DNA of 28,549 bases from a virus. A model generated the notes under the pieces. It saw nothing but the letters and a program-made list of their open reading frames with translations, had not been told where the DNA came from and did not search any database. Shown here in pieces: positions 6,398 to 28,549 of this stretch. Within the stretch, counting starts at the first letter, position 1. Each line of letters starts with the position of its first letter. The position numbers and the translations under genes are program-made. The stretch spans positions 1 to 28,549 of the IMG/VR virus record IMGVR_UViG_3300031951_000935; one strand, written 5' to 3'.

Positions 6398-6870
6398 TGA
6401 AACTTACAATTATTCCAAGTGATGGCACTGTTTGCGAAGATAACGTGTGTTACAACAATCTTGTGTGGGTTGGTACACCAGCAGATGTACATGCGCTGCA
6501 ATGGCAGGATGTTGCAGGCTGGATTGAATACAATGATGGCAAGCCAAATGAAGACATTACTACGCTGCCTGCATGGGTAGCCAATGCTGAGGCTGCATGG
6601 ACTGAAGCTAATAAGCCTCCAGCACCTCCTGGGCCACCAACTGCTGAACAGAATCAGCAAACTGCAATTGGCTTGCTAGTCGCTACTGACTGGGTTAATC
6701 AGCCTGATGTGCGCAACACTGCAAACGTTCCTCATTTGTTAAATGGACAAGCGTTTGATGACTACAGGGTTGCTGTGCGCATTTACGCTGTTTATCCAAA
6801 TGCTGGCTATATCGATTGGCCGGTTAAGCCAGTAGAACAATGGTCAGATCCTTTTGAAGGTATCTCATGA
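6397..6870 (+). CDS. Tail fibre-associated protein (157 aa)
   Basis: A 157-residue protein starting MKLTIIPSDGTVCEDNVCY. The central region has the pattern 'PADVHALQW...GWIEYNDGKPNEDITTLPAW' followed by a Pro-rich linker (NKPPAPPGPPT). I recall this pattern from proteins next to tail fibre genes in many phages, often called tail assembly or tail fibre chaperones. The start at ATG 6397 overlaps the fibre stop by one base; an alternative start 15 bases upstream (MRERL) is less likely. The stop overlaps the next ATG as ATGA at 6867-6870. The helper role is inferred from family pattern and position. Confidence 0.75.
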   Translation: MKLTIIPSDGTVCEDNVCYNNLVWVGTPADVHALQWQDVAGWIEYNDGKPNEDITTLPAWVANAEAAWTEANKPPAPPGPPTAEQNQQTAIGLLVATDWVNQPDVRNTANVPHLLNGQAFDDYRVAVRIYAVYPNAGYIDWPVKPVEQWSDPFEGIS

Positions 6871-11802: not shown

Positions 11803-12818
11803 TCCGTAATCCTCGCATCAAACACTGAGCGCAACTCCTCAACCGCTGCATCTGCATGCGCACAGGCTTCTGGGTTAGCCAATAACTCTGCACTACTGTA
11901 AACGTTCGTATCCGCCTCGCCATTGCGCACTGGTACGTTGTCTATCAAGTACAAGGCTTCATGCGGATTGTCTGCTGGTAGGCGCTTGTACGGCAGGACA
12001 TCTGGGTGCAACACATGTTGACTGCAGCCTTTCAACTGGAACTCAAATGGAATCTCTGCATTGTCGTTGCGTGCGCATAAAAACTGACTCTGTTCTGTTG
12101 ATGTTGAGTGTGCGCAGTTCCTACAAGACACATTGTCTGTAATGTGCGTTTCATGGCAGAAGGCATGGTAAGAGCACAACTTACACTCAAACCAACTTGG
12201 ATCTGCGCTAATAGGTTCTGGAATGTAATCACTAAGAGCTATTCTTTTTGCACGTTCTACGGTTTTCTCAGCAAACTCTTTGTCCAGCTTCACAATCTCT
12301 GTGTAAATGTCGCTTGTGTTTTTATTAAGGGCATAGAACAAGCAACGATCCAGCTTTAGGCCAAGCATGTAACAATGAACTTGCGCCCAATAGATTGGCT
12401 TTGATTCTTGCAGTTTCTTCTTTTTTAAATCGTTAAAAGATTTGTCAGACAATGTCTTAATTTCAAGCAACAGCGTCTGTTTTTCTCGTCCAGGTACGTT
12501 TGTGATAATGCCATCACAAGATCCGCTAACATGACTGCCAAAGTCTATTTTGGCCTGTCGATGTACGATCCTGCATCCAATAGCTTTTAGCTCTTTGATT
12601 ACTGTGTCTTCGTAATCATGTCCAAATTTAAACAGTTTCAGTATGCGACCAGGAAACTTTGAAGAAACAACATTACGAAATCCCAGCCATAACTTGCGGT
12701 CGCACTTTTCACCAATTTGACTGATCCCCATGTGTGGTCTTGGTGGATCTGCATTATCTTGATAACTTTGATAGATCAATGACTCTATAGAATGCACAGC
12801 TTCTGGAATAGCTGTCAT
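11799..12818 (-). CDS. Cas4-like PD-(D/E)XK exonuclease with added zinc-ribbon tail (339 aa)
   Basis: I start at ATG 12818, with GGAGG 6 bases upstream and ATGA overlap with the HNH stop; the frame could start 4 codons earlier. The nuclease core is visible: E70 region (GHDYED), D102 (GSCDG), E119-x-K121 (LLLEIKT) and the RecB-family Q-motif Q146 (AQVHCYMLGL). C39 (GEKCDRKLWL) with C212-x2-C215-x5-C221 (CKLCSYHAFC) reproduces the four-Cys iron-sulfur staple of Cas4 and AddB nucleases. A second Cys set, C232, C235, C248 and C265, makes a likely zinc ribbon. It probably resects DNA ends for the phage recombination system with the AAA and DUF669-like proteins encoded upstream. It is shut off from their transcript by a terminator unless readthrough occurs. 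Confidence 0.82.
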   Translation of the reverse strand: MTAIPEAVHSIESLIYQSYQDNADPPRPHMGISQIGEKCDRKLWLGFRNVVSSKFPGRILKLFKFGHDYEDTVIKELKAIGCRIVHRQAKIDFGSHVSGSCDGIITNVPGREKQTLLLEIKTLSDKSFNDLKKKKLQESKPIYWAQVHCYMLGLKLDRCLFYALNKNTSDIYTEIVKLDKEFAEKTVERAKRIALSDYIPEPISADPSWFECKLCSYHAFCHETHITDNVSCRNCAHSTSTEQSQFLCARNDNAEIPFEFQLKGCSQHVLHPDVLPYKRLPADNPHEALYLIDNVPVRNGEADTNVYSSAELLANPEACAHADAAVEELRSVFDARITE

Positions 12819-13303
12819 ATGTGCCTCCATGTTTTTTTATTTCTTACCGCATAGATTACAGAAATTGATACGCCATATTTTTCTGCAATACTTTTATGTG
12901 TTCCTTGCTCTTGTCTGATCATCAAAACTTTTTCATTAGTCAGTTTTGCGCTTCCTTGCTGCTCTCCTTTGCATCGTGGCACTTTGACGCGCTGACGCTG
13001 TGATGCTTGTCGCATGTTGTCTGTTTGCGTGCCAAGCTCTAAATGATCTGGGTTTATGCAAGCAGGAACATCACATTTATGCAGCACAAATAATCCATCT
13101 GGAATCTTTCCATGCGTAATCTCATAAGACGCTCTATGCGCTAATATTCCTTTTCCATTCATCGTAAAACGCCCATAACCGTGATTATTTTTTGCGCCAA
13201 TCCATAAAATGCATCCTGTGCTTGTTGTTTCTCCGGTGTGTTCAGCTAATCGCACATGTACGGGCTGACCTCGCATATGTCTGCCATTGCCAGTTTTTTT
13301 CAT
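12815..13303 (-). CDS. Freestanding HNH homing endonuclease (162 aa)
   Basis: A 162-residue protein. 'CILWIGAKNNHGYGRF', 'LAHRASYEITHGKIPDG' and 'LHKCDVPACINPDHLELGTQ' make a Cys-containing HNH_3-type nuclease (about residues 31-92). The C-terminal 'VLMIRQEQGTHKSIAEKYGV' is a helix-turn-helix DNA-binding module. It sits right after the terminator at 13315-13342 and ends in ATGA overlap with the nuclease gene, whose GGAGG site lies inside its last codons. Unlike the other three endonuclease genes of this window it has no three-way-junction RNA in front. The position suggests insertion between terminator and exonuclease gene. Confidence 0.85.
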   Translation of the reverse strand: MKKTGNGRHMRGQPVHVRLAEHTGETTSTGCILWIGAKNNHGYGRFTMNGKGILAHRASYEITHGKIPDGLFVLHKCDVPACINPDHLELGTQTDNMRQASQRQRVKVPRCKGEQQGSAKLTNEKVLMIRQEQGTHKSIAEKYGVSISVIYAVRNKKTWRHI

Positions 13304-18302: not shown

Positions 18303-18545
18303 ATGGCGAAGCCAAGACATAACTTAATTAATATGACATTTACACGCTGGACAGTGATCAACGATGCAGAAAACTCTGCCCACGGCAAACATGTCGTAGT
18401 CGTCAAGTGCAGATGCGGGACAGTACGTGCAATTCTTGCACAGAACTTACTGCGCGGTCAGTCAAAGAGCTGCGGATGCTTGCAAGTGGAAAGAGCATCT
18501 GAAACACAACGCGCTAGATGGGCGGCGTTACGCAATAAAACATGA
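18303..18545 (+). CDS. Zinc-binding domain protein of the type fused to HNH/AP2 proteins (80 aa)
   Basis: An 80-residue protein: 'RHNLINMTFTRWTVINDAEN', 'VVKCRCGTVRAIL' and 'GQSKSCGCLQVERAS'. The C-x-C and C-G-C pairs make a small zinc site. I recall this 'F.RltVi...W.CrCdCG....v....L..G.tkSCGCl' domain both alone and at the N-terminus of phage HNH/AP2 proteins. Here it stands alone and ends at the promoter of the next endonuclease module. It may be an ordinary phage gene or part of an old endonuclease insertion. Confidence 0.7.
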   Translation: MAKPRHNLINMTFTRWTVINDAENSAHGKHVVVVKCRCGTVRAILAQNLLRGQSKSCGCLQVERASETQRARWAALRNKT

Positions 18546-18551
18546 TATGAT
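18546..18551 (+). promoter_or_regulatory. -10 box of endonuclease module 1
   Basis: TATGAT preceded by TG one base upstream (TGATATGAT), an extended -10. No good -35 is seen. The distance of 6 bases to the GCGGC stem puts the expected RNA start at the base of the stem. Confidence 0.5.
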
Positions 18552-18556
18552 TTATT

Positions 18557-18605
18557 TGCGGCAGGGAAATGCATATCCCGTTGAGCTAGTCACTCAACAG
18601 CCGCA
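18557..18605 (+). ncRNA. Three-way-junction RNA element, copy 1
   Basis: Outer stem TGCGGC/GCCGCA (18557-18562 with 18600-18605). Second stem GGGA/TCCC (18564-18567 with 18576-18579). Third stem GTTGAG/CTCAAC (18580-18585 with 18593-18598). Single A at 18563 and 18599 join the stems; there is no linker between stems two and three. The same plan is found at 21568 and 26560 with different but compensating bases. It lies 33 bases before an HNH gene. Confidence 0.75.
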
Positions 18606-18638
18606 TCCCACAAGACTACTCTATGACTGGAGGTCTAA

Positions 18639-19133
18639 ATGCTTACTCAAGCACAACTCAAAGATTTAGTTGTCTATTGCCCAGAACGTGGTGGTTTGTA
18701 TTGGGTAAAGCCAACAGGAAAAAAAGCAAGAATTGGTCATCGTGTTGGCGCAAAAACGTTAGAAGGATATAGGCAAACAAGCATCTTAAGGATTCAATAT
18801 AAAGAGCATAGGCTTGTATGGTTGTATCATTATGGATGTTTGCCAAACAACGAAATTGACCATATTAATGGCGTGCGAGACGATAACCGCATAGAAAATT
18901 TGCGAGATTGTACGTCAGCGCAAAACAAACAAAATCTAAGAAATTGTACTGTTAGAAATAACAGCACAAAAATTTTAGGTGTGTACCAACAGTTAACGCA
19001 TTCTCCTAATTTTGTTGCAAGAATAAGCGTAAATGGAAAAAACGTTTATCTTGGTACATTTAAAACCAAAGAAGCCGCAGCAAAAGCGTATGTCGCGGCA
19101 AAGCGTAAACATCACAATTATGGAACTTTATAA
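18639..19133 (+). CDS. HNH-AP2 homing endonuclease (164 aa)
   Basis: A 164-residue protein. The HNH core is 'EHRLVWLYHYGCLPNNEIDH' followed by INGVRDDNRIENL (about 56-90), with D74-H75, N77, N83 and N87. A C-terminal AP2 DNA-binding domain follows (113-160: GVYQQLTHSPNFVARISVNG, YLGTFKTKEAAAKAY). It is freestanding, not in an intron. GGAGG lies 5 bases before the ATG. The three-way-junction RNA and -10 box precede it, and the MazG-like gene follows 2 bases after its stop. It is AT-richer than its neighbours, in keeping with transfer. Confidence 0.9.
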   Translation: MLTQAQLKDLVVYCPERGGLYWVKPTGKKARIGHRVGAKTLEGYRQTSILRIQYKEHRLVWLYHYGCLPNNEIDHINGVRDDNRIENLRDCTSAQNKQNLRNCTVRNNSTKILGVYQQLTHSPNFVARISVNGKNVYLGTFKTKEAAAKAYVAAKRKHHNYGTL

Positions 19134-19135
19134 CA

Positions 19136-19447
19136 ATGTCATCTTTTGAGAGCTTAGAATTAGATGTTTGTCGCTGGGCAGATGCACGAGGGATTCTCAA
19201 GAATGGCAATCCAAAAACCCAAATGCTAAAGGGCGTGTCAGAGCTTGGTGAGCTAGCTGACGCGGTTGCAAAAGACGACCTACACGGCATCATTGATGGC
19301 ATTGGAGACACTCTAGTAGTGCTAGCAATCGTAGCGGACATGTACAGTCTTAGCCTTAAAGACTGCTTGCAAGCAGCCTATGACGAAATTAAAGACCGCA
19401 AAGGCTATCTCAACAGTGCTGGTGTATTCATCAAAGAGGAAGCCTAG
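19136..19447 (+). CDS. MazG-like nucleotide pyrophosphohydrolase (103 aa)
   Basis: A 103-residue all-helical protein with the MazG/dUTPase-type metal motif: 'VSELGELADAVAKDDLHG' (E36-x2-E39) and 'IIDGIGDTLVVLAIVADM' (D54-x3-D58). Such enzymes split nucleoside triphosphates to monophosphates and may remove unusual nucleotides or alter (p)ppGpp during infection. The substrate cannot be told from sequence. It follows the HNH gene with a 2-base gap and precedes a membrane protein gene by 2 bases. Confidence 0.82.
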   Translation: MSSFESLELDVCRWADARGILKNGNPKTQMLKGVSELGELADAVAKDDLHGIIDGIGDTLVVLAIVADMYSLSLKDCLQAAYDEIKDRKGYLNSAGVFIKEEA

Positions 19448-19449
19448 CT

Positions 19450-19674
19450 ATGGTTGAGAAAGAGCTTGCGTACTACATGCTTGCTGTAATCATGATGTTA
19501 GGTCTATGGATTGTGTATTTGCTTTACAGAATTGGCGAATTGAAGATAGACATAAAAGGCTGGGATCATGCCTTGGTGCGCTGTCATGAAGAAAAGCAAA
19601 AGCTAGAGATTAAAAAAAACACAATGGTTGAGCGTGTAAAAAAGGTGCTAGATGTATACGAAACAGGAAAATAG
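19450..19674 (+). CDS. Small membrane-anchored coiled-coil protein (74 aa)
   Basis: A 74-residue protein with one membrane span (residues 7-27, YYMLAVIMMLGLWIVYLLYR) and a cytoplasmic-type charged helix (CHEEKQKLEIKKNTMVERVK). The layout resembles the other small membrane proteins of the early region. The next gene starts 23 bases inside it. Function unknown. Confidence 0.65.
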   Translation: MVEKELAYYMLAVIMMLGLWIVYLLYRIGELKIDIKGWDHALVRCHEEKQKLEIKKNTMVERVKKVLDVYETGK

Positions 19675-19879
19675 AACAGAGAATGGCGAAGACATAAAAG
19701 TTCTGCCAACCGTTGGCTATTGCATCATTGATGGCAACGCAACTGTTAGTTTACTAACAAAACAAGATGACAATCAGTTTACGCTTTTTGCTTATGATCC
19801 AGAAGAAGCGCGCATGATTGCTGAAGACTTAAACACTTGGGCTACAAGGGTTGAAAAATTAAGAGAAAGCAAACAATGA
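19652..19879 (+). CDS. Hypothetical protein (75 aa)
   Basis: A 75-residue protein starting at ATG 19652 with AAGGTG upstream. A small beta-rich part (VGYCIIDGNATVSLLTKQDD, FTLFAYDPEEA) precedes a C-terminal helix (ARMIAEDLNTWATRVEKL). It overlaps the previous gene by 23 bases and the next by 4 (ATGA). No family recognised. Confidence 0.65.
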   Translation: MYTKQENRTENGEDIKVLPTVGYCIIDGNATVSLLTKQDDNQFTLFAYDPEEARMIAEDLNTWATRVEKLRESKQ

Positions 19880-20046
19880 GCGATTACATCATAGAAACTG
19901 GCTGGATCAACATTTATCCAGCACATAGCGTCTGTTCATGCGGTCATGCAACCGCAAAGATACATCCAACAAAAGAACACGCTGATGCACATGCTGACGA
20001 CAAACGCATTGCATGTGTGCGTGTAGAGTACGAGGTGAAGCAATGA
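19876..20046 (+). CDS. Small Cys/His-rich protein (56 aa)
   Basis: A 56-residue protein: MSDYIIETGWINIYPAHSVC, then 'SCGHATAKIHPTKEHADAHA' and a short basic end. The C-x-C-x-H and spaced His residues suggest a metal site. The start overlaps the upstream stop and the stop overlaps the next start, both as ATGA. Function unknown. Confidence 0.65.
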   Translation: MSDYIIETGWINIYPAHSVCSCGHATAKIHPTKEHADAHADDKRIACVRVEYEVKQ

Positions 20047-20267
20047 ACGCAGACGACTATCAAGCTGGTGGCACCCACTACAAAGACATGGCCGTACAGC
20101 CATGGTCCGTCATGGAACAACTATTGACAAAACAAGAGTTCATAGGCTATCTAAAAGGTAATATAATCAAGTACGCAATGCGCGCTGGCCTCAAAGACGA
20201 ACACGATGGCGAAAAACTTAAACATTACATGCAAAAGCTCAACGAGTTCGGCATCAAGGTCCTGTAA
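20043..20267 (+). CDS. DUF3310 protein (74 aa)
   Basis: A 74-residue protein with the full DUF3310 pattern: 'AGGTHYKDMAVQPWSVMEQL', 'FIGYLKGNIIKYAMRAGLKD' and 'EKLKHYMQKL'. This small domain is frequent in phages, sometimes labelled nucleotide kinase-like, without proven function. I start at ATG 20043, in ATGA overlap with the previous stop, rather than 30 bases upstream. It lies among replication and nucleotide genes. Confidence 0.85.
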   Translation: MNADDYQAGGTHYKDMAVQPWSVMEQLLTKQEFIGYLKGNIIKYAMRAGLKDEHDGEKLKHYMQKLNEFGIKVL

Positions 20268-20403
20268 TGATTGCGAGTATTATGAGCCACGAATTCATGT
20301 ACCTGGCTTCGGCCATTGTTATTTTAACTTTCATGGCTTTGACGACCTGAAGGATGGCATGTCATCTGACACATGTGAGTTCTGGATAGAGGTTGATGAT
20401 TAG
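20206..20403 (+). CDS. Cys-rich small phage protein (65 aa)
   Basis: A 65-residue frame whose start ATG 20206 lies 62 bases inside the DUF3310 gene. The part after that overlap, 'CNDCEYYEPRIHVPGFGHCY' and 'SDTCEFWIEVDD', has four Cys in the C-x2-C...C...C-x-F-W pattern of many small phage zinc-type proteins, which supports the frame. The ribosome site is weak. Function unknown. Confidence 0.6.
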   Translation: MAKNLNITCKSSTSSASRSCNDCEYYEPRIHVPGFGHCYFNFHGFDDLKDGMSSDTCEFWIEVDD

Positions 20404-20495
20404 TTTGCTAGTTACATTAACGTGTCGGAGCGTTTGGCTTCTAGCAATGACAGCCAGGAACAGACTGGCGCTTAATTCTTACTTGGAGCACGTTT
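20404..20495 (+). promoter_or_regulatory. Early/late boundary with inverted repeats
   Basis: A 92-base gap before the packaging genes. TTGCTAG (20405-20411) and CTAGCAA (20441-20447) are perfect inverted repeats with 29 bases between; TGCTAG is also the core of the palindrome at 15284. A hairpin GCCAG/CTGGC (20452-20456/20464-20468) follows. The ribosome site context ACTTGGAG(C)ACGTT is nearly identical to that of the regulator gene at 15345. A late promoter would be expected here, but I see only weak boxes. Confidence 0.35.
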
Positions 20496-21284
20496 ATGCC
20501 TAGACCAACACTAGCATCACTCTTGGAAGACTTCCGTAACTGGAACAAAACACAAGACTGGATGCTTAACAAGCAGCGCGACATCTACGGCAACGAAGAT
20601 CCAGACACAATTGCATTGAACGAAAAGCTAGCCGGTATCGGTACCGCTGACATGGGGATAATGGGTTCCAGTGTTGGTGGATTGGCTGGGATGCTAATTC
20701 CAGCTATTGGAGTCAATAAAATCCCAAAGATAGAAAATCTTGCTAAAGCTGCTGATAAGTTTATTTATCATTCTGGAACAGCGGATATGGCTCCTGACTT
20801 GCGCTATGGCATTACACCAACAAATGAAGGCGCTTGGATTCGTGAGGTTGCAGAAGGCGCAACAGATGATGTAGATAATTTATTAGAGCAATCTACTCCA
20901 TTATCTTGGTATTCAAGCACTCCAGAATGGATAAAAATTAAAGTCGCAAGAAAATTAGGTAAAGCGCTAACAGATGTAAATGAACAGGACATTTTGGAGC
21001 ATGGTCATTTAGCTATGGTTCCAAAAAAAGGACAACATGCTAAAGATGTTTGGTATGTTGGCAGCGGAGGATTGCAAGATGACGTTATCAATTTGCTTGG
21101 ACAAAAGAAAACACCAAGTTTGACTGATCTTTATGGCGAAAACAATTACGGACAGCGCACAGAACCGTTTGGTGTTGAAAGAAACGAATATGTTACAACT
21201 CAAGACATTGAGCCAATGTTTCAGTTAACAGGAAATGATTTGTTGTCTTTTTTAAAAGCAATAGGGTCATCAGGTGGAAAATAA
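20496..21284 (+). CDS. Unknown protein, possibly ADP-ribosyltransferase-like (262 aa)
   Basis: A 262-residue protein with good GGAG upstream. Residues 1-50 are polar helix, 51-75 Gly/Met-rich hydrophobic (GIMGSSVGGLAGMLIPAIGV). From residue 88 the pattern 'KFIYHSGTADMAPDLRYGIT', 'PLSWYSSTPEWIKIKVARKL', 'HGHLAMVPKKGQ' and 'GVERNEYVTTQDIEP' recalls the H-Y-E layout of ART-type toxins and phage polyvalent-protein domains (YHG, Y-S, E near a strand). This is a weak resemblance. Placed just before terminase genes, it may be carried into the host or be a host-directed early effector. The small terminase start overlaps its last 11 bases. Confidence 0.6.
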   Translation: MPRPTLASLLEDFRNWNKTQDWMLNKQRDIYGNEDPDTIALNEKLAGIGTADMGIMGSSVGGLAGMLIPAIGVNKIPKIENLAKAADKFIYHSGTADMAPDLRYGITPTNEGAWIREVAEGATDDVDNLLEQSTPLSWYSSTPEWIKIKVARKLGKALTDVNEQDILEHGHLAMVPKKGQHAKDVWYVGSGGLQDDVINLLGQKKTPSLTDLYGENNYGQRTEPFGVERNEYVTTQDIEPMFQLTGNDLLSFLKAIGSSGGK

Positions 21285-21552
21285 AGTACGGGAAAATACG
21301 GGTGTTGGTAATCGCGGTCGCGGCAGGCCAAAAGGCGCGCCAAACAAAAGCACAGCAGCCATAAAAGACATGCTGCTAGCCTCACTCGATGAGGTTGGCG
21401 GTCAAAACTACTTCAAGCAACAAGCGCTAGATAATCCAAACGCTTACATGGCGCTTATTGGCAAGATCATTCCAGCCGAAGTAAAGAATCAAATCACTGG
21501 TGCAGATGGCGGTCCAGTTCAACACAGCGTAAAGCTAAAGTTTGGTGATTAA
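21274..21552 (+). CDS. terS: Terminase small subunit candidate (92 aa)
   Basis: A 92-residue protein from GTG 21274, overlapping the upstream gene by 11 bases. 'GRGRPKGAPNKSTAAIKDML' followed by LASLDEVGG, and then 'NPNAYMALIGKIIPAEV', is a pattern I recall from short phage proteins directly before large terminase genes (DUF5681/small-terminase-like). The basic N-terminus would bind DNA. Small subunits find the packaging site and load the large subunit. The HNH module has separated it from the large subunit gene. Confidence 0.7.
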   Translation: MENKVRENTGVGNRGRGRPKGAPNKSTAAIKDMLLASLDEVGGQNYFKQQALDNPNAYMALIGKIIPAEVKNQITGADGGPVQHSVKLKFGD

Positions 21553-21554
21553 GC

Positions 21555-21560
21555 TATAAT
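21555..21560 (+). promoter_or_regulatory. -10 box of endonuclease module 2
   Basis: A perfect TATAAT, 7 bases before the C that begins the outer stem of the RNA element. No convincing -35 is seen upstream, where the sequence codes for the end of the small terminase. Confidence 0.55.
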
Positions 21561-21567
21561 GATTATG

Positions 21568-21612
21568 CGCGGCAGGGAGGCATCCCGTCAGATTTCGCAG
21601 CTGACAGCCGCG
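21568..21612 (+). ncRNA. Three-way-junction RNA element, copy 2
   Basis: Outer stem CGCGGC/GCCGCG (21568-21573 with 21607-21612). Second stem GGGA/TCCC (21575-21578 with 21583-21586) closing a GGCA loop. Third stem GTCAG/CTGAC (21587-21591 with 21601-21605). Single A at 21574 and 21606. The first pair is C-G where the other two copies have T-A. 33 bases separate it from the HNH start. Confidence 0.75.
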
Positions 21613-21645
21613 CCACTCCATGCGAACCTTAGCGAGAGGAAGCCA

Positions 21646-22133
21646 ATGATTACGCAAGAACTTCTGCATTCAATGTTTTCTTATGACCCAATTACTGGGT
21701 CATTGTTGTTTAAGACTCATTTGGCTGGGACACGTAAAAGACAAGTTGCTGGCTATGGGCAGAACAAAGGATATTTGTCCGTCAGCATTCAAAACAAAAA
21801 GTATTTATTGCATAGACTTGTATGGATGTTCCATCATGGATCGTTTCCAAAAAACAGTTAGATCACATCAATGGAATTAAGCGCGACAATAGAATAGAAA
21901 ATTTAAGAGAAGCAACTGATTCTGAAAATCAGCAAAATCAAAAAAAGCCACCAGCACACAACACGTCTGGATTTCTTGGTGTCACAAAATACAAAAGAAA
22001 TGGAAAATGGGTTGCAGGAATAAAGTTAAATGGCAAAAGAATAAACCTTGGATACTTTGATACGCCAGAAGCTGCACATGCTGCATATCTTCAGAAAAAG
22101 AAAGAACTGCACCCGTTTCAAACGCTAATATAA
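21646..22133 (+). pseudogene. HNH-AP2 homing endonuclease split by a -1 frameshift
   Basis: The first frame runs from ATG 21646 (MITQELLHSMFSYDPITGSL) to TAG 21859-21861. The rest of the protein (QLDHINGIKRDNRIENLREA, then an AP2 domain GFLGVTKYKRNGKWVAGIKL) continues in the -1 frame to TAA 22131-22133. The break lies in A6-C at 21849-21855, in phase as CC-A AAA AAC, the classic slippery heptamer. A -1 slip gives GSFPKNQLDHING, which aligns without a gap to GCLPNNEIDHING of the HNH protein at 18639. It is either a dead gene (one A lost), a sequencing error in a homopolymer, or programmed frameshifting. Without the slip, all of the catalytic D-H and the AP2 domain are lost. Confidence 0.8.
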
Positions 22134-23398
22134 TGGAAACAATTGCTCATTTTCCCCCCAAGATGCGTGGTCTTTTCGATCCATATCGATACAAGATTTA
22201 TCACGGGGGGCGAGGATCTGGAAAGTCTTGGGCATTCGCTAGAGCATTGTTAATTCAAGCGGCGGCGGAACCGTTGCGCGTTTTATGCTGTCGCGAGGTT
22301 CAGAAAAGCATCAAGCAATCTGTGCATCAATTGCTTAAAGACCAGATTCAAGACCTTGGATTTGGATATTTGTTTGACGTTACAGAAACAGCAATTCGCT
22401 GCAAAAATGGTTCAGAATTCTATTTTGCTGGTCTCGCCCAACACACAACTGAGTCGATCAAAAGTTATGAGGGCATTGATCGTGTCTGGATTGAGGAAGG
22501 GGCTACGATCACAAAGAAATCTCTTGATATTCTTATTCCTACAATCAGAAAAGAAAATTCAGAAATATGGATTAGCCTTAACCCGGATCTTGATACTGAT
22601 GAGGTTTATAGTCGCTTTATCGCAAATCAGGTTCCAGGGTCTTTGGTTGTTCAGGCAAATTACAGCGATAATCCATACTTTCCAAGCGTTCTTGAAACAG
22701 AGCGTGCGCATTGTGAAGCGCATAGCAAACATGACTACGAAAACATCTGGCTCGGTAAACCCAAAACTGTTGTCGATGGCGCAATCTATGCAGATGAGTA
22801 TCAGAAACTGGTCGAAGAGCATCGTATTAACCTTGTAACGTCTGATCCAATGCTGAAGTCACATGTTGTTGTAGACCTCGGCTGGAATGACGCAATGTCT
22901 ATCATTGTTGCTCAGCGTGCAGGCTCTGAGTGCAGGATAACGCATTACATCGAAGAGTCATTTCAGACGTTGGACTGGTACTCTGCTGAACTGCGCAAGC
23001 TCAACCTCAACTGGGGAAAGATGTGGCTTCCGCATGATGCTGTACACAAGGACTACAAGACTGGCAAGAGCGCTGCTGAAATCATGACGATGCTAGGCTG
23101 GGAGACAGAAGTCATACCCATTGGCAACGTAGAGCATGGCATTAAGCTATGTCGCATGATGTTTCCAAGGGTTTGGATGGATAAGGAAAAGACTAAGCGT
23201 TTGCAGGAATGTCTCAAGCGTTATCGCCGTAGTATCAATGCAACGACTAACCAGCCATCTGGCCCATTGCACGATGAATACTCACATGGAGCAGATGCAT
23301 TTAGGTATCTAGCAACATGCATAGACCTATTTAGGAATGATAATATACGGCAACGCAAACCACGCGATCTTGGCGCGTCTAGCTGGATGAGCTTTTAG
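22133..23398 (+). CDS. terL: Terminase large subunit (421 aa)
   Basis: A 421-residue terminase of the Terminase_3/PBSX-like type. Walker A 'HGGRGSGKS' at 24-32, Walker B 'RVWIEEG' at 117-123, and the RNase H-like nuclease with D248 (VVVDLGWND), D302 (LPHDAVH) and D381/D388 (HDEYSHGADAFRY). It pumps DNA into the procapsid and cuts the concatemer. The start ATG overlaps the stop of the split HNH gene by one base (TAATG), and no Shine-Dalgarno is visible upstream, so translation may depend on ribosomes finishing the HNH frame. The portal gene follows 9 bases later. Confidence 0.93.
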   Translation: METIAHFPPKMRGLFDPYRYKIYHGGRGSGKSWAFARALLIQAAAEPLRVLCCREVQKSIKQSVHQLLKDQIQDLGFGYLFDVTETAIRCKNGSEFYFAGLAQHTTESIKSYEGIDRVWIEEGATITKKSLDILIPTIRKENSEIWISLNPDLDTDEVYSRFIANQVPGSLVVQANYSDNPYFPSVLETERAHCEAHSKHDYENIWLGKPKTVVDGAIYADEYQKLVEEHRINLVTSDPMLKSHVVVDLGWNDAMSIIVAQRAGSECRITHYIEESFQTLDWYSAELRKLNLNWGKMWLPHDAVHKDYKTGKSAAEIMTMLGWETEVIPIGNVEHGIKLCRMMFPRVWMDKEKTKRLQECLKRYRRSINATTNQPSGPLHDEYSHGADAFRYLATCIDLFRNDNIRQRKPRDLGASSWMSF

Positions 23399-23407
23399 GA
23401 TACAAAC

Positions 23408-25591
23408 ATGGCTAACTTAGATACTGATTCCGTACTGAACTCTCTTGGCGTAGAGCCAGAAGCTAACGAACGTAGCGATATGGATCAGGAGACGCTAAAA
23501 GAGATACGCGAACGGTTTCAGCAGGCAACAAAATTTGAAGGTCAAGGAAGACAAGACAGGCTAGATGATATTCGTTTTGCACGCCTCGGTGATCAGTGGT
23601 CAGAGGCGGCTAAGTACGACAGGAACCGTCCAGGCCAAGAGCGGCCAATGCTTGTTGTTAACAGGCTCTTGCAGTTCCGTGATCGTGTCGTAAACGAAAT
23701 CAGACAGAACACGCCAAGTATCCGTTACCGGCCATCGAACAATGAAGCTGATGTAGAGACAGCAGAAGTATTGATGGGCCTTGCGCGCCACATACAAGAC
23801 AACAGCAACGCACCGATTGCATACGATACTGCTGTTGAATGGCAAGTAGACACTGGCCTTGGATACATTCGCGTCCGCAATGACTGGGCATCAGACACTA
23901 GCTTTGATCAGGAAATCTACATTGATCGTATTCCAGATCCAATGAAGGTCTATTACGATCCGCATAGCAAGACACCAGATGGCTCAGATGCTGAGTGGGC
24001 GATTATTGCTGAGGAAATCAGCAAGGATGAGTTTAAGCGTCTGTATCCAGATGTTGATCTAAGCTCTTGGGAAGCGGCTGGTAATGGCGACATGCAAGGC
24101 TGGTACACCAGTGATTCAGTGCGTATCGCTGAGTATTACTACCTTGAGCATGAGATGAAGGAGATATATGACGAAGAAACAGGCCAGTCTCGCATGGCTG
24201 ACATTAAGCGCTGCATGTGGTGTAAGGTTGGCGGTCATACGGTACTAGAGCGCACTGAGATTCCATGCAAATACATTCCAGTCGTACCAGTCATTGGGCA
24301 TGAAGTCTGGTTGCAAGGTAAACGTCATCTGTCTGGTCTTGTTCGTAACGCTAAGGATGCACAGCGACTGTATAACTACTATCTGTCAGCAAATGCTGAG
24401 AACGTAGCGCTTGCGCCAAAGGCTCCATTTATTGGCGTTGCAGGACAGTTTGAGACTGATCCTAACTGGGCTGTTGCGAATAAGACTAGCCTTGCATATC
24501 TCGAATACGATCCTGTCTCTATTGCTGGCACTCCTGTTGGCGCTCCACAGCGCGCACAGCCACCACAGGCATCAAGTGCAATCATGCAGGCTATTCAGAT
24601 TGCCGAGAATGACATCATGCAGTCTATGGGAATCTACCAGCCTAGTCTTGGTGGTGACTCTAACGAAACTTCTGGACGCGCATTGTTGCTGCGTCAGAAG
24701 CAAGCAGAGACTGGTAACTTCCATTTCCAGGACAATCTTAATCGTTCAATCCGTCAGGTTGGGCGCATTGTGTTGAGCATGATTCCGAGGATCTATAACC
24801 GAGCTAGAGTTGTACGTATCCTTGGTGAAGATGGGTCGCCAAAGTCTGTCAATCTTGATCCAAGCCTGCCGCAGGCCAGCGCTAACACTGACAATCCAGC
24901 AATCGATAGCATCTATAACCCAACCATTGGTGAATACGATGTTGTCTGCGATTCTGGGCCTAACTACGCAACGAAGCGTGATGAGGCAGCAAATATGATG
25001 CTGTCATTGACTCAAGCGAACCCACAGCTATTCCAGATGATTGGCGACCTGATGATGAAGAACATGGACTGGCCTGGTGCTGAGGAAATCGCCAAGCGTC
25101 TGCAAGCCATGTTGCCGCCACAGTTCCAGCCCAGTGCTGATGGTACTAAGGTTGATCCACAGGTTATCCAAGCGCAGCAGATGATGGAGCAGATGGCTAC
25201 GCAGATGGAGCAGATGGCACAACAGGTCCAGATGATGAATCATCAGAACCAGTTACTGGTCGATTCCAAAGAACGCGAATGGTACGAAGCTCAGACTAAG
25301 CGCATGGATGTCGAAGGTAAGCTGATGATGACTGATGCGCAGTTACAGGCAGCAGTGCGTGAAAACCTGATGACAATGATGGCGGCTGGTTCAGCAGAAG
25401 TCATGGAATCTAACCGCGAACTTGAAGAAGCAGAGAACGCATTGATTGCACAGCAAATGCAGCCAGCACAGCAGCCACAACAGCAGCAACCAGCAATGCA
25501 AGGTCAGGCATTAAGCGTTGGCACAATGAGACGACAGCCCGATGTACAGGCATTAACAGGCGAAGCAAAACCAGGAGAAAGTAATGAGTGA
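23408..25591 (+). CDS. P22-type portal protein (727 aa)
   Basis: A 727-residue protein, the size of P22-like portals. Typical parts: 'GDQWSEAAKYDRNRPGQERP' followed by MLVVNRLLQFRDRVVNEIRQN (about 62-105), 'VEWQVDTGLGYIRVRNDW' (143-160), and 'YNYYLSANAENVALAPKAPF' with 'SMGIYQPSLGGDSNETSGRA' in the core. From about residue 595 the chain is Met/Gln-rich and helical (MMEQMATQMEQMAQQ), like the barrel of P22 gp1. The dodecameric ring forms the DNA entry channel. AGGAT precedes the ATG at 23408. It overlaps the scaffold gene by 8 bases. Confidence 0.9.
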   Translation: MANLDTDSVLNSLGVEPEANERSDMDQETLKEIRERFQQATKFEGQGRQDRLDDIRFARLGDQWSEAAKYDRNRPGQERPMLVVNRLLQFRDRVVNEIRQNTPSIRYRPSNNEADVETAEVLMGLARHIQDNSNAPIAYDTAVEWQVDTGLGYIRVRNDWASDTSFDQEIYIDRIPDPMKVYYDPHSKTPDGSDAEWAIIAEEISKDEFKRLYPDVDLSSWEAAGNGDMQGWYTSDSVRIAEYYYLEHEMKEIYDEETGQSRMADIKRCMWCKVGGHTVLERTEIPCKYIPVVPVIGHEVWLQGKRHLSGLVRNAKDAQRLYNYYLSANAENVALAPKAPFIGVAGQFETDPNWAVANKTSLAYLEYDPVSIAGTPVGAPQRAQPPQASSAIMQAIQIAENDIMQSMGIYQPSLGGDSNETSGRALLLRQKQAETGNFHFQDNLNRSIRQVGRIVLSMIPRIYNRARVVRILGEDGSPKSVNLDPSLPQASANTDNPAIDSIYNPTIGEYDVVCDSGPNYATKRDEAANMMLSLTQANPQLFQMIGDLMMKNMDWPGAEEIAKRLQAMLPPQFQPSADGTKVDPQVIQAQQMMEQMATQMEQMAQQVQMMNHQNQLLVDSKEREWYEAQTKRMDVEGKLMMTDAQLQAAVRENLMTMMAAGSAEVMESNRELEEAENALIAQQMQPAQQPQQQQPAMQGQALSVGTMRRQPDVQALTGEAKPGESNE

Positions 25592-26468
25592 TGAGACACA
25601 AGTATTTGAAACAGTAGATGACGATGCTGGCGTACAAGACAACGATCAAGCCACTATCGATAATCAAGACAATTCACAAGAGGGGCTTGAAGAGGCGCAT
25701 GAGCAACAAGCAGACGAACAAGGAGAGAAGCAAAAAGATCCGTGGTACAAGCGCAGGATCGATGAACTTACGCGAGACAAACATGAGGCTCGTCGTCAAG
25801 CTGAGCGGCTTGAGAAGATCCTTGAGCAGCAGGAACAGCTTCTCAAGCAGTACCAGCCAAATGGACAGCAACAGCCTCAGCAATCAACTCTACAGCCTCC
25901 TAATCCAGCCGATTTTGCTGGCGGCCAGTATGATCCTCGATACATGGAAGCAATGCTTCAGTACACTCGGTCTAGCGCTGTCGAAGAAGCTAAACAGGCA
26001 GTTGCCGCAGAGTACCAGCAGCGCGCACAGCAAGAAGCAGTTATGGCTGCACAGGCGCGATTAGAGACCGCTGAAACCGCTGCACGCGCTAAGTACTCAG
26101 ACTATGACGCGGTTATTGAAGGTGTAACCTCAGATCCACGGCTTGCTCAAAATGAAACCATTAAAGCAGCGCTACTAGGATTGGATAATGGGCCAGACGT
26201 TGCGTATCTCCTTGGACGAAACCTGGATATTGCGTATGAGATTGCGAATACCCGCAATCCTATTGCTGCTGGAATGAAACTAGCAGAGCTGATGAATCGC
26301 GCACCAAGGAAGGTTGCAAACGCGCCAACGCCAATTAAGCCTATCAATGGCGCGGCTGGTGGCGTAGCTGGTGCAGGACGCAGCTACAGTGAAATGTCTA
26401 CGGCTGAGTTTATTGCTGCGCGCAATGCTGAAGAAATGGCGAAACGGCAAGCACTCTACAAACGGTGA
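25584..26468 (+). CDS. Scaffold protein (294 aa)
   Basis: A 294-residue protein with an acidic Gln/Asp-rich N-terminus (about 1-50), a charged coiled coil (WYKRRIDELTRDKHEARRQA, then ERLEKILEQQEQLLKQ), a Pro/Gln linker (about 93-110) and a helical C-terminal half ending in a basic segment (RNAEEMAKRQALYKR). Composition and place between portal and coat genes match podovirus scaffolds, which guide coat assembly and then leave. The basic C-terminus would bind the coat protein, as in P22. AGGAGA lies just upstream of the ATG, which overlaps the portal end. A hairpin and a terminator follow. Confidence 0.85.
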   Translation: MSDETQVFETVDDDAGVQDNDQATIDNQDNSQEGLEEAHEQQADEQGEKQKDPWYKRRIDELTRDKHEARRQAERLEKILEQQEQLLKQYQPNGQQQPQQSTLQPPNPADFAGGQYDPRYMEAMLQYTRSSAVEEAKQAVAAEYQQRAQQEAVMAAQARLETAETAARAKYSDYDAVIEGVTSDPRLAQNETIKAALLGLDNGPDVAYLLGRNLDIAYEIANTRNPIAAGMKLAELMNRAPRKVANAPTPIKPINGAAGGVAGAGRSYSEMSTAEFIAARNAEEMAKRQALYKR

Positions 26469-26511
26469 TATAGTGAGATAGTCAGCGCAATGCTGACAGT
26501 CTCCATATCAC
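26465..26511 (+). promoter_or_regulatory. Long hairpin at the end of the scaffold gene
   Basis: GTGATAT/ATATCAC (26465-26471 with 26505-26511), then GAGA/TCTC (26475-26478 with 26500-26503), then GTCAGC/GCTGAC (26481-26486 with 26492-26497) stack to one 17-bp interrupted hairpin that includes the scaffold stop codon. No T-run follows it directly. It may protect the upstream mRNA from exonuclease or act with the terminator three bases later. Confidence 0.6.
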
Positions 26512-26513
26512 TC

Positions 26514-26544
26514 AAAGGCCAGCGTTAAAAACTGGCCTTTTTTT
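26514..26544 (+). terminator. Rho-independent terminator between scaffold and coat genes
   Basis: AAAGGCCAG (26514-26522) and CTGGCCTTT (26532-26540) pair over 9 bp with a 9-base loop and run into seven T (26538-26544). It is the strongest terminator in the window and lies inside the virion operon. Confidence 0.88.
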
Positions 26545-26548
26545 ATGC

Positions 26549-26554
26549 TAATAT
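26549..26554 (+). promoter_or_regulatory. -10 box of endonuclease module 3
   Basis: TAATAT preceded by TG one base upstream (TGCTAATAT), an extended -10, starting 4 bases after the terminator T-run. The predicted RNA start is at the base of the GCGGC stem at 26560-26561. Confidence 0.5.
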
Positions 26555-26559
26555 ATGTT

Positions 26560-26609
26560 TGCGGCAGGAGGTTCGAAACTCCGTCTGGATTCACGCCCAG
26601 ACAGCCGCA
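26560..26609 (+). ncRNA. Three-way-junction RNA element, copy 3
   Basis: Outer stem TGCGGC/GCCGCA (26560-26565 with 26604-26609). Second stem GGAG/CTCC (26567-26570 with 26579-26582), which differs from GGGA/TCCC of the other copies at two compensated pairs. Third stem GTCTGG/CCAGAC (26583-26588 with 26597-26602). Single A at 26566 and 26603. 32 bases separate it from the GIY-YIG start. Confidence 0.75.
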
Positions 26610-26641
26610 CCCTCAAGCGTGACCATTCGTGCTGGTGATCT

Positions 26642-27307
26642 ATGAAGCAGTTCTACGTCTACATCCATAAAAAGCCTGATGGCACGCCGTTTTACGTTGG
26701 TAAAGGCACAGGAAGGCGTGCATATCAGTTCTATAACAGATCAAGCTGGCATAAAAACATCGTAGCCAAATATGGCAGAAACAACATTATCATTGAAGTT
26801 GTGAACTGTTTGAGTGAAGCGCAAGCATTTGATCTAGAAAAGATTTACATAAAACAGTTTAAGCATAGTGGAGTGTGTTTAGTTAATTTGACTGATGGCG
26901 GTGAAGGACATAGTGGCTTCAGGCAAACACCGGCAATGAAGAAAAAACGCTCTGAAACCTTAAAAAGGTTTTATGCTTCAGAGACTGGTAAGCAAGTTAA
27001 TGCTGAGCTAAATAAGCACAGGATCGGGAGAAAAAACACCCAAGCAACAAAGATAAAAATGAGTAGCGCAGCAAAAGGCAAACCAAAGACTGCGCAACAT
27101 GCTTTGAATTTGTCAAAAGCTCGGGTTGGAAAACCAAGGACAGGAAGCGGAATTGGTTTGGCTGGCGTTAATTGGGTGAAATCACAGCAATGTTGGAAAG
27201 TTGTTGAGTGTTTCCGTGGCAAAACAACTTTTTATGGAAACTTTAAAAATTTGTTAGATGCCGCTGCGCATAGAATTTCTTTACAAAATAAAAAACAAAT
27301 GGTATAA
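26642..27307 (+). CDS. GIY-YIG homing endonuclease (221 aa)
   Basis: A 221-residue protein. The GIY-YIG core is at 4-90: 'FYVYIHKKPDGTPFYVGKGT' with Y5-V-Y, Y18-V-G, R25/R26, and E66 in 'LEKIYI'. From about 90 there are NUMOD3-like basic repeats (GRKNTQATKIKMSSAAKGKP, NLSKARVGKPR). The last 45 residues look like an AP2-like end (LAGVNWVKSQQCWKVVECFR). It is freestanding, placed between a terminator and the coat gene, and preceded by its own -10 box and the three-way-junction RNA. It is the same insertion plan as for the two HNH genes, with an unrelated nuclease. Confidence 0.9.
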   Translation: MKQFYVYIHKKPDGTPFYVGKGTGRRAYQFYNRSSWHKNIVAKYGRNNIIIEVVNCLSEAQAFDLEKIYIKQFKHSGVCLVNLTDGGEGHSGFRQTPAMKKKRSETLKRFYASETGKQVNAELNKHRIGRKNTQATKIKMSSAAKGKPKTAQHALNLSKARVGKPRTGSGIGLAGVNWVKSQQCWKVVECFRGKTTFYGNFKNLLDAAAHRISLQNKKQMV

Positions 27308-27433
27308 GTCGGATACCAAGCGTTGACACGGCCCTTGTAGCGCTTGCGGCATATCAGATCATTCGAGGGATTGGCTCCTATCTGAAAACATATATGGGCA
27401 TACCATTTATTTTTTCATCATTAGGAGGTTCGC
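27308..27433 (+). other. Leader of the coat protein gene
   Basis: A 126-base noncoding stretch. AAATGGTAT (27297-27305) and ATACCATTT (27400-27408) are perfect 9-bp inverted repeats that could close the leader into a loop. A nested GGTAT/ATACC hairpin lies at 27301-27317. TTGACA occurs at 27323 but with no -10 at a proper distance. The AGGAGG at 27423-27428 is the strongest ribosome site in the window, as expected for a coat gene. Confidence 0.45.
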
Positions 27434-28549
27434 ATGTCGAACAATTTGCTTACCATAAGCTCCATTACTAATGAGGCTTTGCGTGTGCTGACCAATAACT
27501 TGGTTTTCACTCGCGCAGTATCTCGGCAGTATGACGACCGTTTTGCAATTGAAGGGGCCAAAATCGGCACTACTATCAATTTGCGTAAACCGCCGCGTTA
27601 TATTGGTCGTACCGGTCCTGCACTTCAGGTTGAATCTTCAGTTGAAACGTATGTTCCGCTGACTCTGGATACTCAGTTCGGCGTAGACATGGCGTTTACG
27701 ACTCAGGATCTTACGATGAACATCAGCGACTTCTCTGATCGTTTCATTAAGCCTGCTGTTGCAGCGATTGCTAATAAGATCGATTATGACGGTCTTCAGC
27801 AGTTCTACAACGTCTACAACCTTGTCGGCACGCCTGGTCAGTTGACTGATGGCGCTACGACTCAGGCTGAGGCGATTGCTTCTATTCTGGCTGCACGCCG
27901 TAGACTGAATGAAGAAGCTGCACCGATGGACGAAGATCGTTCATTTGTTGTAGATCCCGCAATCGAAGTCGGCATTGTTTCTGGTCTGACCAATCTGTTC
28001 AACCCGCAGGGTACGATCAGCGCTATCTTCAAGAAAGGTGGCCTTGGTGACTCTACGCTGGGCTTCAACTTTGCGGCTGATCAGAACGTTGGTAACTTCA
28101 CCACTGGTACTGCTACGAACTTCACGGTTTCTGCACAGTCTGGTGGTTCAGTACAGACCAATGCTCAGACCACGTTTACGCTGGCTGTTAGCTCTACCTC
28201 TGGCACTCTGACCAAGGGTACTGTCTTCACCATTCCTGGTGTATATGCAGTTAACCCGCAGAACCGTCAGTCAACTGGCTCACTGCGTAACTTTGTTATC
28301 ACCAGCACTGCTGCTGGTAGCTCTACCAGTCTGTCTATCTTCCCGACTCCGGTCTTTAGCGGTCAGTTCCAGAACGTTACCAGTGCTACTGGTGCAATTG
28401 CTTCTGGAACCGCTACGATCCTGTCTGGTGCGTCTGGCTCTGCTGCAAGTTATGCACAGGCTCTTGCATTCCACAAGGATGCATTTGCACTGGGTACGGC
28501 TGACCTGATCCTGCCGCAGGGTGTGGATATGGCTGGTCGCGCTTCGGCT
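27434..28549 (+). CDS. Major coat protein, P22 coat family (partial, first 372 codons)
   Basis: Starts at ATG 27434 after AGGAGG and stays open to the right edge. The N-terminus 'SNNLLTISSITNEALRVLTN' and 'NLVFTRAVSRQYDDRFA', then 'GAKIGTTINLRKPPRYIGRT' and 'VPLTLDTQFGVDMAFTTQDL', match the P22 coat (gp5) family. The middle (about 210-345) is Thr/Ser/Gly-rich beta sequence, possibly an inserted surface domain, after which the family pattern resumes (AFHKDAFALGTADLILPQG). It builds the icosahedral shell on the scaffold encoded upstream. The C-terminus is outside the window. Confidence 0.92.
   Translation, partial: MSNNLLTISSITNEALRVLTNNLVFTRAVSRQYDDRFAIEGAKIGTTINLRKPPRYIGRTGPALQVESSVETYVPLTLDTQFGVDMAFTTQDLTMNISDFSDRFIKPAVAAIANKIDYDGLQQFYNVYNLVGTPGQLTDGATTQAEAIASILAARRRLNEEAAPMDEDRSFVVDPAIEVGIVSGLTNLFNPQGTISAIFKKGGLGDSTLGFNFAADQNVGNFTTGTATNFTVSAQSGGSVQTNAQTTFTLAVSSTSGTLTKGTVFTIPGVYAVNPQNRQSTGSLRNFVITSTAAGSSTSLSIFPTPVFSGQFQNVTSATGAIASGTATILSGASGSAASYAQALAFHKDAFALGTADLILPQGVDMAGRASA

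Follow-up and report, generated by a model that had tools for sequence, protein, structure and literature searches.

Candidate translational switches in the leader RNAs of phage homing endonuclease genes

Introduction

Why would a phage carry the same small structured RNA in front of three of its nuclease genes? The question arises from a virus record of 28,549 bases (the window), which belongs to a podovirus-like phage with a P22-like portal and a terminase about 49% identical to those of Pseudomonas phages such as LKA5. A first-pass annotation had described three copies of a three-way-junction RNA, each with its own -10 box and each preceding a homing endonuclease gene. It had recognized no known class, and had suggested mRNA stabilization, ligand sensing, control of timing or mobility of the module as possible roles.

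Results

Three junction RNAs in the window

The three annotated copies are located exactly as reported, on the plus strand at positions 18557-18605 (copy 1), 21568-21612 (copy 2) and 26560-26609 (copy 3). They are 45-50 nt long and lie 5' of two HNH genes and one GIY-YIG gene. All share one plan: a stem P1 (GCGGC/GCCGC plus one covarying outer pair), a single A, stem P2, no linker, stem P3, another A, and P1'. In copy 1, P1 is formed by 18557-18562 and 18600-18605, followed inwards by A18563, P2 (18564-18579), P3 (18580-18598) and A18599; in copy 2 the P2 loop, L2, is a GGCA tetraloop. Each copy folds into this junction when folded alone, at -20.5, -21.0 and -24.8 kcal/mol for copies 1-3 (z-scores -3.5, -3.0 and -4.4). 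A loose pattern, GCGGCAGG..CCGT..ACAGCCGC, matches the window only at 18558-18604, 21569-21611 and 26561-26608, and had no matches in 100 dinucleotide shuffles. A covariance model run with its filters off recovered the three copies at E-values of 1e-12 to 1e-17; nothing else in the window fell below E = 1, and there is no fourth copy.

Rfam searches found nothing relevant, either in the whole window at the gathering cut-off or in positions 18400-27400 at E-values up to 10, and the window copies have no profile match to HEARO or OMEGA RNA, group I introns, ribozymes or other Rfam families. We dropped self-splicing or ribozyme activity as a candidate because there was no match of any sort.

Junction-to-ATG distances are 33, 33 and 32 nt, in agreement with the 32-33 nt annotated. 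Copy 1 precedes an HNH_3 + AP2 homing endonuclease gene (18639-19133), copy 2 an HNH_3 + AP2 nuclease gene that is broken by a -1 frameshift (21646-22133), and copy 3 a GIY-YIG-type homing endonuclease gene (26642-27307; phrog_314, E = 1.4e-25) for which a Pfam search gave no match; all three are on the plus strand. The frameshift in the copy 2 gene sits at a run of A residues (21849-21854), and a relative of this gene in L053 is intact, without the shift there. The frameshift is probably a one-base loss in the A run; programmed frameshifting is conceivable. The association with homing endonuclease genes holds for the three window copies, with the qualifications that one gene is frameshifted, that a fourth HNH gene in the window lacks the RNA, and that some relatives of the RNA precede other kinds of gene.

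That fourth gene (HNH_3) lies on the minus strand at 12818-13303, with a terminator-like hairpin directly before it. Just 5' of copy 1, an 80-aa ORF (18303-18545) matches part of a different HNH nuclease family (phrog_374, E = 1e-14), as a nuclease-gene remnant adjoining a nuclease gene. The frame break in the copy 2 gene (21847-21861) coincides exactly with CC-A-AAA-AAC, which is a classic slippery heptamer for -1 frameshifting.

Promoter-like signals at the 5' end

Plus-strand -10-like hexamers lie 5, 7 and 5 nt before P1 in copies 1-3: TATGAT (18546-18551), TATAAT (21555-21560) and TAATAT (26549-26554), the first and third in the extended forms TGaTATGAT and TGcTAATAT. The annotated -10 boxes are thus present; consensus promoter and terminator scans found no plus-strand sigma-70 -35/-10 pair at any window copy. 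A similar hexamer lies 4-9 nt 5' of P1 in all 13 of the related leaders that we tested, with a mean score of 7.6 compared to 4.9 in shuffled upstream DNA, and frequently has the extended TGn form. Since the boxes are often extended and lack a -35 element, we regard a promoter as probable but unproven. A terminator-like hairpin, AGGCCAG-CGTTAAAAA-CTGGCCT, and T run at 26516-26544 end immediately 5' of the copy 3 -10 box, and several relatives of the GIY-YIG leader have a T-rich stretch at the same place, which suggests that the GIY-YIG nuclease relies on its own promoter.

Compact relatives and covariation

By protein similarity to the nucleases we fetched relatives of the window leaders that carry the same compact structure with changed stems. 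An initial pattern scan yielded 118 stretches, mostly chance matches in GC-rich coding DNA, which a pairing filter removed. In an alignment of 13 leaders, 97.4% of cells pair, and 12 of the 16 pairs are changed on both sides. There are 41 doubly changed cells, compared to 12.5 ± 3.2 in shuffles, and the signal is lost when partners are slid by 1-3 columns. The earlier claim of a selected, covarying RNA is upheld by these tests, and a covariance model search of further genomes turned up additional copies in many phages. The compact model detected leaders outside its training set, including L192 (E = 3e-8) and L229 (E = 1e-5), and also L391, L403, L406, L413 and L420 at E-values of 1e-9 to 3e-13, of which L391 was first fetched with a pattern containing P2, and the other four with one containing P1 and the L2 motif. 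In BLASTN searches against named phages, no match was obtained with the copy 1 leader, and those obtained with the copy 3 leader were weak and partial.

As a rule, the compact leaders precede nuclease genes; only the L406/L413 lineage precedes a non-nuclease gene, of unknown family. L138 has a group I intron (3880-4159) downstream of a GIY-YIG nuclease gene, and in L136 a tRNA gene (2826-2898) lies directly 5' of the leader of another GIY-YIG nuclease gene.

Loop L3 matches two downstream sites, one of them at the SD

We found that the P3 loop, L3, has two complements further along the leader. R1 lies some 7 nt beyond P1'; R2, at a distance of about 17 nt from P1', abuts or overlaps the SD. 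Between R1 and the start codon is a predicted short hairpin, P4, which by sequence holds the SD in all three window copies. In copy 1, L3 (CTAGTCA, 18586-18592) is complementary to R1 (GACTA, 18614-18618) and to R2 (TGACTGG, 18624-18630); R2 lies in the loop of P4 (CTC/GAG, 18619-18632) and overlaps the SD, GGAGG (18629-18633). The elements of copy 2 are L3 (TTTCGCAG, 21593-21600), R1 (TGCGAA, 21621-21626), P4 (CCT/AGG, 21627-21639) and, in the P4 loop, R2 (AGCGAGA, 21631-21637), which overlaps the SD and runs into AGAGG. Those of copy 3 are L3 (ATTCACGC, 26589-26596), R1 (GCGTGA, 26617-26622), P4 (ACCA/TGGT, 26622-26636) and a weak R2 of about 4 pairs in the P4 loop (TCGTG, 26627-26631). The three codes are orthogonal, with own pairings of -7.8 to -8.8 compared to -1.3 to -4.6 for crossed pairings. 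By itself, nested folding is not always enough to sequester the SD: the full leader of copy 2 has a z-score of -0.8.

Because viral contigs are not independent, we collapsed the sequences to distinct loops before assessing these pairings, whose energies are nearest-neighbor duplex estimates without tertiary terms. Among the compact leaders (13 distinct L3 sequences), each loop pairs with its own R1 zone at -7.39 kcal/mol compared to -2.26 kcal/mol for mismatched zones, and with its own R2 zone at -6.52 compared to -3.16 kcal/mol; none of 10,000 permutations reached the observed value in either case. L3, R1 and R2 thus co-vary between phages, shuffling of partners abolishes both pairings, and G-U pairs are present in the L3-R duplexes. 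The same alleles, CTAGTCA/GACT, occur before unrelated genes–HNH genes (window copy 1 and L215), a GIY-YIG gene (L140) and a Prim-Pol gene (L335).

An extended class with the same pairing logic

Many HNH genes whose leaders fail our strict descriptor have the same pairing logic with other linkers. We collected this extended class by scanning for a 17-mer, GCTAGGAGGCATCCGAA, which is limited to the last part of P1, P2 and the junction, and contains neither L3 nor R. The scan gave 67 viral loci, and the plan L3-R1-P4(R2)-SD is that of the compact leaders. For 35 distinct L3 sequences, pairing with R1 is -6.49 for own partners and -2.41 for mismatched ones, and pairing with R2 is -7.05 and -4.02, with 0 of 10,000 permutations as extreme in each case. 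P4 encloses R2 in 34 of 35 extended leaders (score 10.0 compared to 7.33 ± 0.43; 0 of 200), a statistic that applies to the extended class only and for which the P4 and R2 sites were located partly by the pairing itself. The junction and P2 are strongly kept (C-UA-GGAGGCAUCC-GAA...CU-G), an invariance that is partly by construction because the 17-mer was the search pattern.

Genes behind the extended leaders include HNH, GIY-YIG/T5orf172, KilA-N, Phage_pRha, Prim-Pol, a phosphoesterase and a helicase. As the genes for Prim-Pol and KilA-N show, the arrangement is not confined to nucleases. Named phages with an extended leader include E. coli Bas80 (PQ850597, leader at 28112-28155 on the reverse strand), Vibrio BUCT006 and VchM-138, Klebsiella JD001, Pseudomonas PfAn1 and PS-1, and a Leptolyngbya phage. 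One viral contig (L391) has a compact leader (3817-3861) and an extended one (6601-6649) together.

Relationship to int-alpA

Two HNH leaders from elsewhere exceed the gathering cut-off (35.8 bits) of an existing Rfam family, int-alpA (RF02996): L211 scores 36.6 bits, and L280/L292, from Stutzerimonas, score 39.2 bits. The earlier statement that the RNA is not of a known class is therefore correct for the window copies, which do not match int-alpA at the gathering cut-off or at E-values up to 10 over 18400-27400, but needs amending for their sister leaders. The matching HNH leaders have UA and GAAAA linkers and CU before P1', as do the Rfam consensus and the extended class, whereas the window copies have A, no linker and A at these places. 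Common to int-alpA and the window copies are a P1-P2-P3 three-way junction at this scale and, by a feature that we found here and that lies outside the Rfam criteria, an L3 whose complement occurs twice 3' of P1', the second time at the SD (with copy 3's R2 being weak).

We sampled 274 genomes from the same class as the Stutzerimonas genome, and 35 of them have an int-alpA match above the cut-off. Among 30 distinct int-alpA loops, the best pairing is -8.48 compared to -6.92 in permutations and the second is -7.02 compared to -4.75 (0 of 5000 permutations). R1 mostly follows P1' by 7-8 nt, and R2 follows it by about 20 nt, just before a start codon; in one int-alpA locus, L321, we did not find such L3 pairing. 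Because of this two-site pairing, int-alpA looks like a cis-acting leader. Rfam types it as 'sRNA', and the L3-R1-R2 logic is absent from the Rfam structure. In the literature that we covered, we found no paper on this pairing or on the function of int-alpA, and the one paper found to mention the family only lists it in a table [PMC12370729]; the pairing may have been noted earlier, in the original description of int-alpA.

Our extended-class model hits 10 int-alpA-matching loci at E < 0.01 (the best being the HNH leader L292, E = 6e-8), and in the window it hits only copy 2, at E = 0.037; copy 2 has the GGAGGCATCC P2 hairpin in common with int-alpA. Since the window copies fail the int-alpA profile and differ in the junction, we call them a compact variant. 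To judge from their sequences, the window leaders would work like int-alpA, and the two are likely to be of common descent.

Discussion

A translational switch as the favored explanation

We propose, with a probability of about two in three, that the leader RNA is a cis-acting translational switch in the mRNA of a free-standing nuclease. One loop with two partners of similar strength, one of them at the SD, is what a two-state switch requires. Transcription would start at or beside the first base of P1, as the position of the -10 box suggests, and the junction would fold first and present L3. L3 could then choose between two partners: R1, which follows the junction closely, and R2, which lies at the SD and in most cases within the P4 loop. 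L3:R2 together with P4 would cover the SD (OFF), and L3:R1 would free R2 and the SD (ON), or act as a competitor that sets the level or delay of expression. Competition of R1 with R2 in the cell is an inference, as is the assignment of the ON state. As R1 is transcribed before R2, a delay or timing function would be natural, and the purpose would presumably be to limit or delay a nuclease that is costly to its phage. Copy 3's weak R2, with its roughly 4 pairs, would count against a switch, and the two-state idea may fail for some leaders, such as L219 and L213, since they have R2 without a clear R1. Of the roles suggested in the first-pass annotation, the notion of a selected structure stands, but ligand sensing and mobility are disfavored, and the pairing of L3 with R1 and with R2 at the SD, together with P4, points to translation.

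The most serious competing explanation, though we find it doubtful, is a riboswitch or protein-sensing leader, in which the junction binds a metabolite or a host or phage protein that chooses between L3:R1 and L3:R2. The strongly kept junction and P2 of the wider class (subject to the search bias noted above) could be a sign of a ligand or protein acting there, and the same linkers recur in the Rfam int-alpA consensus. However, the compact window form has A, nothing and A in place of that junction, and the downstream genes have no common pathway; such a trigger would also be compatible with a translational switch.

It is unlikely that the RNA is a 5'-end stabilizer and nothing more, with a GC-clamped junction that shields the mRNA from RppH and RNase E. 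The very stable fold and the consistent placement of the -10 box 4-9 nt before P1 (13 of 13 leaders) fit that idea, but it leaves the L3/R1/R2 covariation, the position of R2 against the SD, and P4 unexplained. The same RNA might do both: a junction at the 5' end of the transcript may stabilize the mRNA in addition to controlling its translation.

Equally, we see little prospect of a trans-acting sRNA, in which cleavage or early termination would release the junction and L3 would act on other mRNAs. This would suit the Rfam typing of int-alpA, the U-rich run after P1' in some extended and int-alpA leaders, and one phage record in which the site is called a terminator. It sits poorly with R1 and R2 being on the same transcript, at fixed spacing before the start codon, and with the window copies, which have no U run and whose codes do not cross-pair.

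Finally, L3, R1 and R2 together repeat a 5-7 bp word downstream of the promoter, once in inverted and twice in direct orientation, and could be three DNA sites at which the nuclease represses its own promoter, as is known for T4 I-TevI [PMC2988022], but we rejected such an operator as the main explanation and think it very improbable, because the word follows the RNA loop rather than the nuclease: it is the same before HNH, GIY-YIG and Prim-Pol genes and different at related nucleases, L3 occupies the loop of a covarying hairpin, R2 that of a second hairpin, and G-U pairs occur.

Comparison with other structured leaders

We compared the window leaders to three further known systems, and they have no Rfam match to either of the first two. 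In the pseudoknot of IncI-type repZ (PK-repZ), a hairpin loop pairs near the SD and controls translation. In the window leaders, by contrast, the loop belongs to a three-way junction and its target is present twice, and we identified no antisense RNA. Flaviviral xrRNAs are three-way junctions in which the third loop pairs downstream; the likeness is one of topology only, since sequence, position relative to the 5' end and context all differ. The third system comprises the RBS-sequestering hairpins of T4 I-TevI, I-TevII, I-TevIII and segB and of Aeh1 mobE [PMC2988022], where, as we propose for the window leaders, RNA structure over the RBS limits translation of a free-standing or intron nuclease [PMC2988022]. 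The T4 genes have one hairpin, which forms in read-through transcripts only, and a late promoter inside it gives the ON form. By contrast, the -10 boxes of the window leaders lie before the whole structure, with none inside a hairpin, and the structure is a three-way junction with alternative partners.

Our results provide a testable mechanism for int-alpA and extend its plan to many phages and several kinds of gene. They suggest that a mobile nuclease entering a new genome may come equipped with its own expression control, independently of the operon next to it. If they act as proposed, the leaders are a natural collection of translation switches that work independently of one another, since their L3 and R sequences drift together on a constant scaffold. 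The presence of members in cultured phages such as E. coli Bas80 makes the class directly testable. We put even odds on the broadest version of this proposal: that there is a large and mostly unrecognized class of phage and prophage leaders, with int-alpA as one branch, in which a loop has a choice of two identical targets, a free one and one located on the ribosome-binding site, and in which drift of the pairing word makes every copy in a genome a switch independent of the others.

Other conserved features of the leaders

Several further types of leader came to light before HNH genes. A subtype in L212, L213, L237, L247 and L263 has a TGTCAG/CTGACA-like stem followed by CCACTCACTCA; it shows an L3-R2 match but no clear R1, as does L219. 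Another conserved HNH leader, GTCTGCATCGTACTAGCGGTGTCTCCCCACGGC..., with a terminator-like stem, occurs in L221, L240, L245 and L266, and a short conserved leader of a different type, TATAATGATTTATCATTTAACACCA, precedes HNH genes in L214, L217, L231, L242 and L244.

The P2 loop can also take a distinctive 8-nt form, consisting of a purine, a self-complementary hexamer (TTCGAA, TTGCAA or ATGCAT) and a purine. Such loops are present in the window at 18568-18575 and 26571-26578, and in L133, L136, L140, L403, L406, L413 and L420. When the pattern was allowed any middle pair, structured leaders had only CG or GC there (10 of 10), whereas unstructured matches had many others. The loop resembles retroviral dimerization loops.
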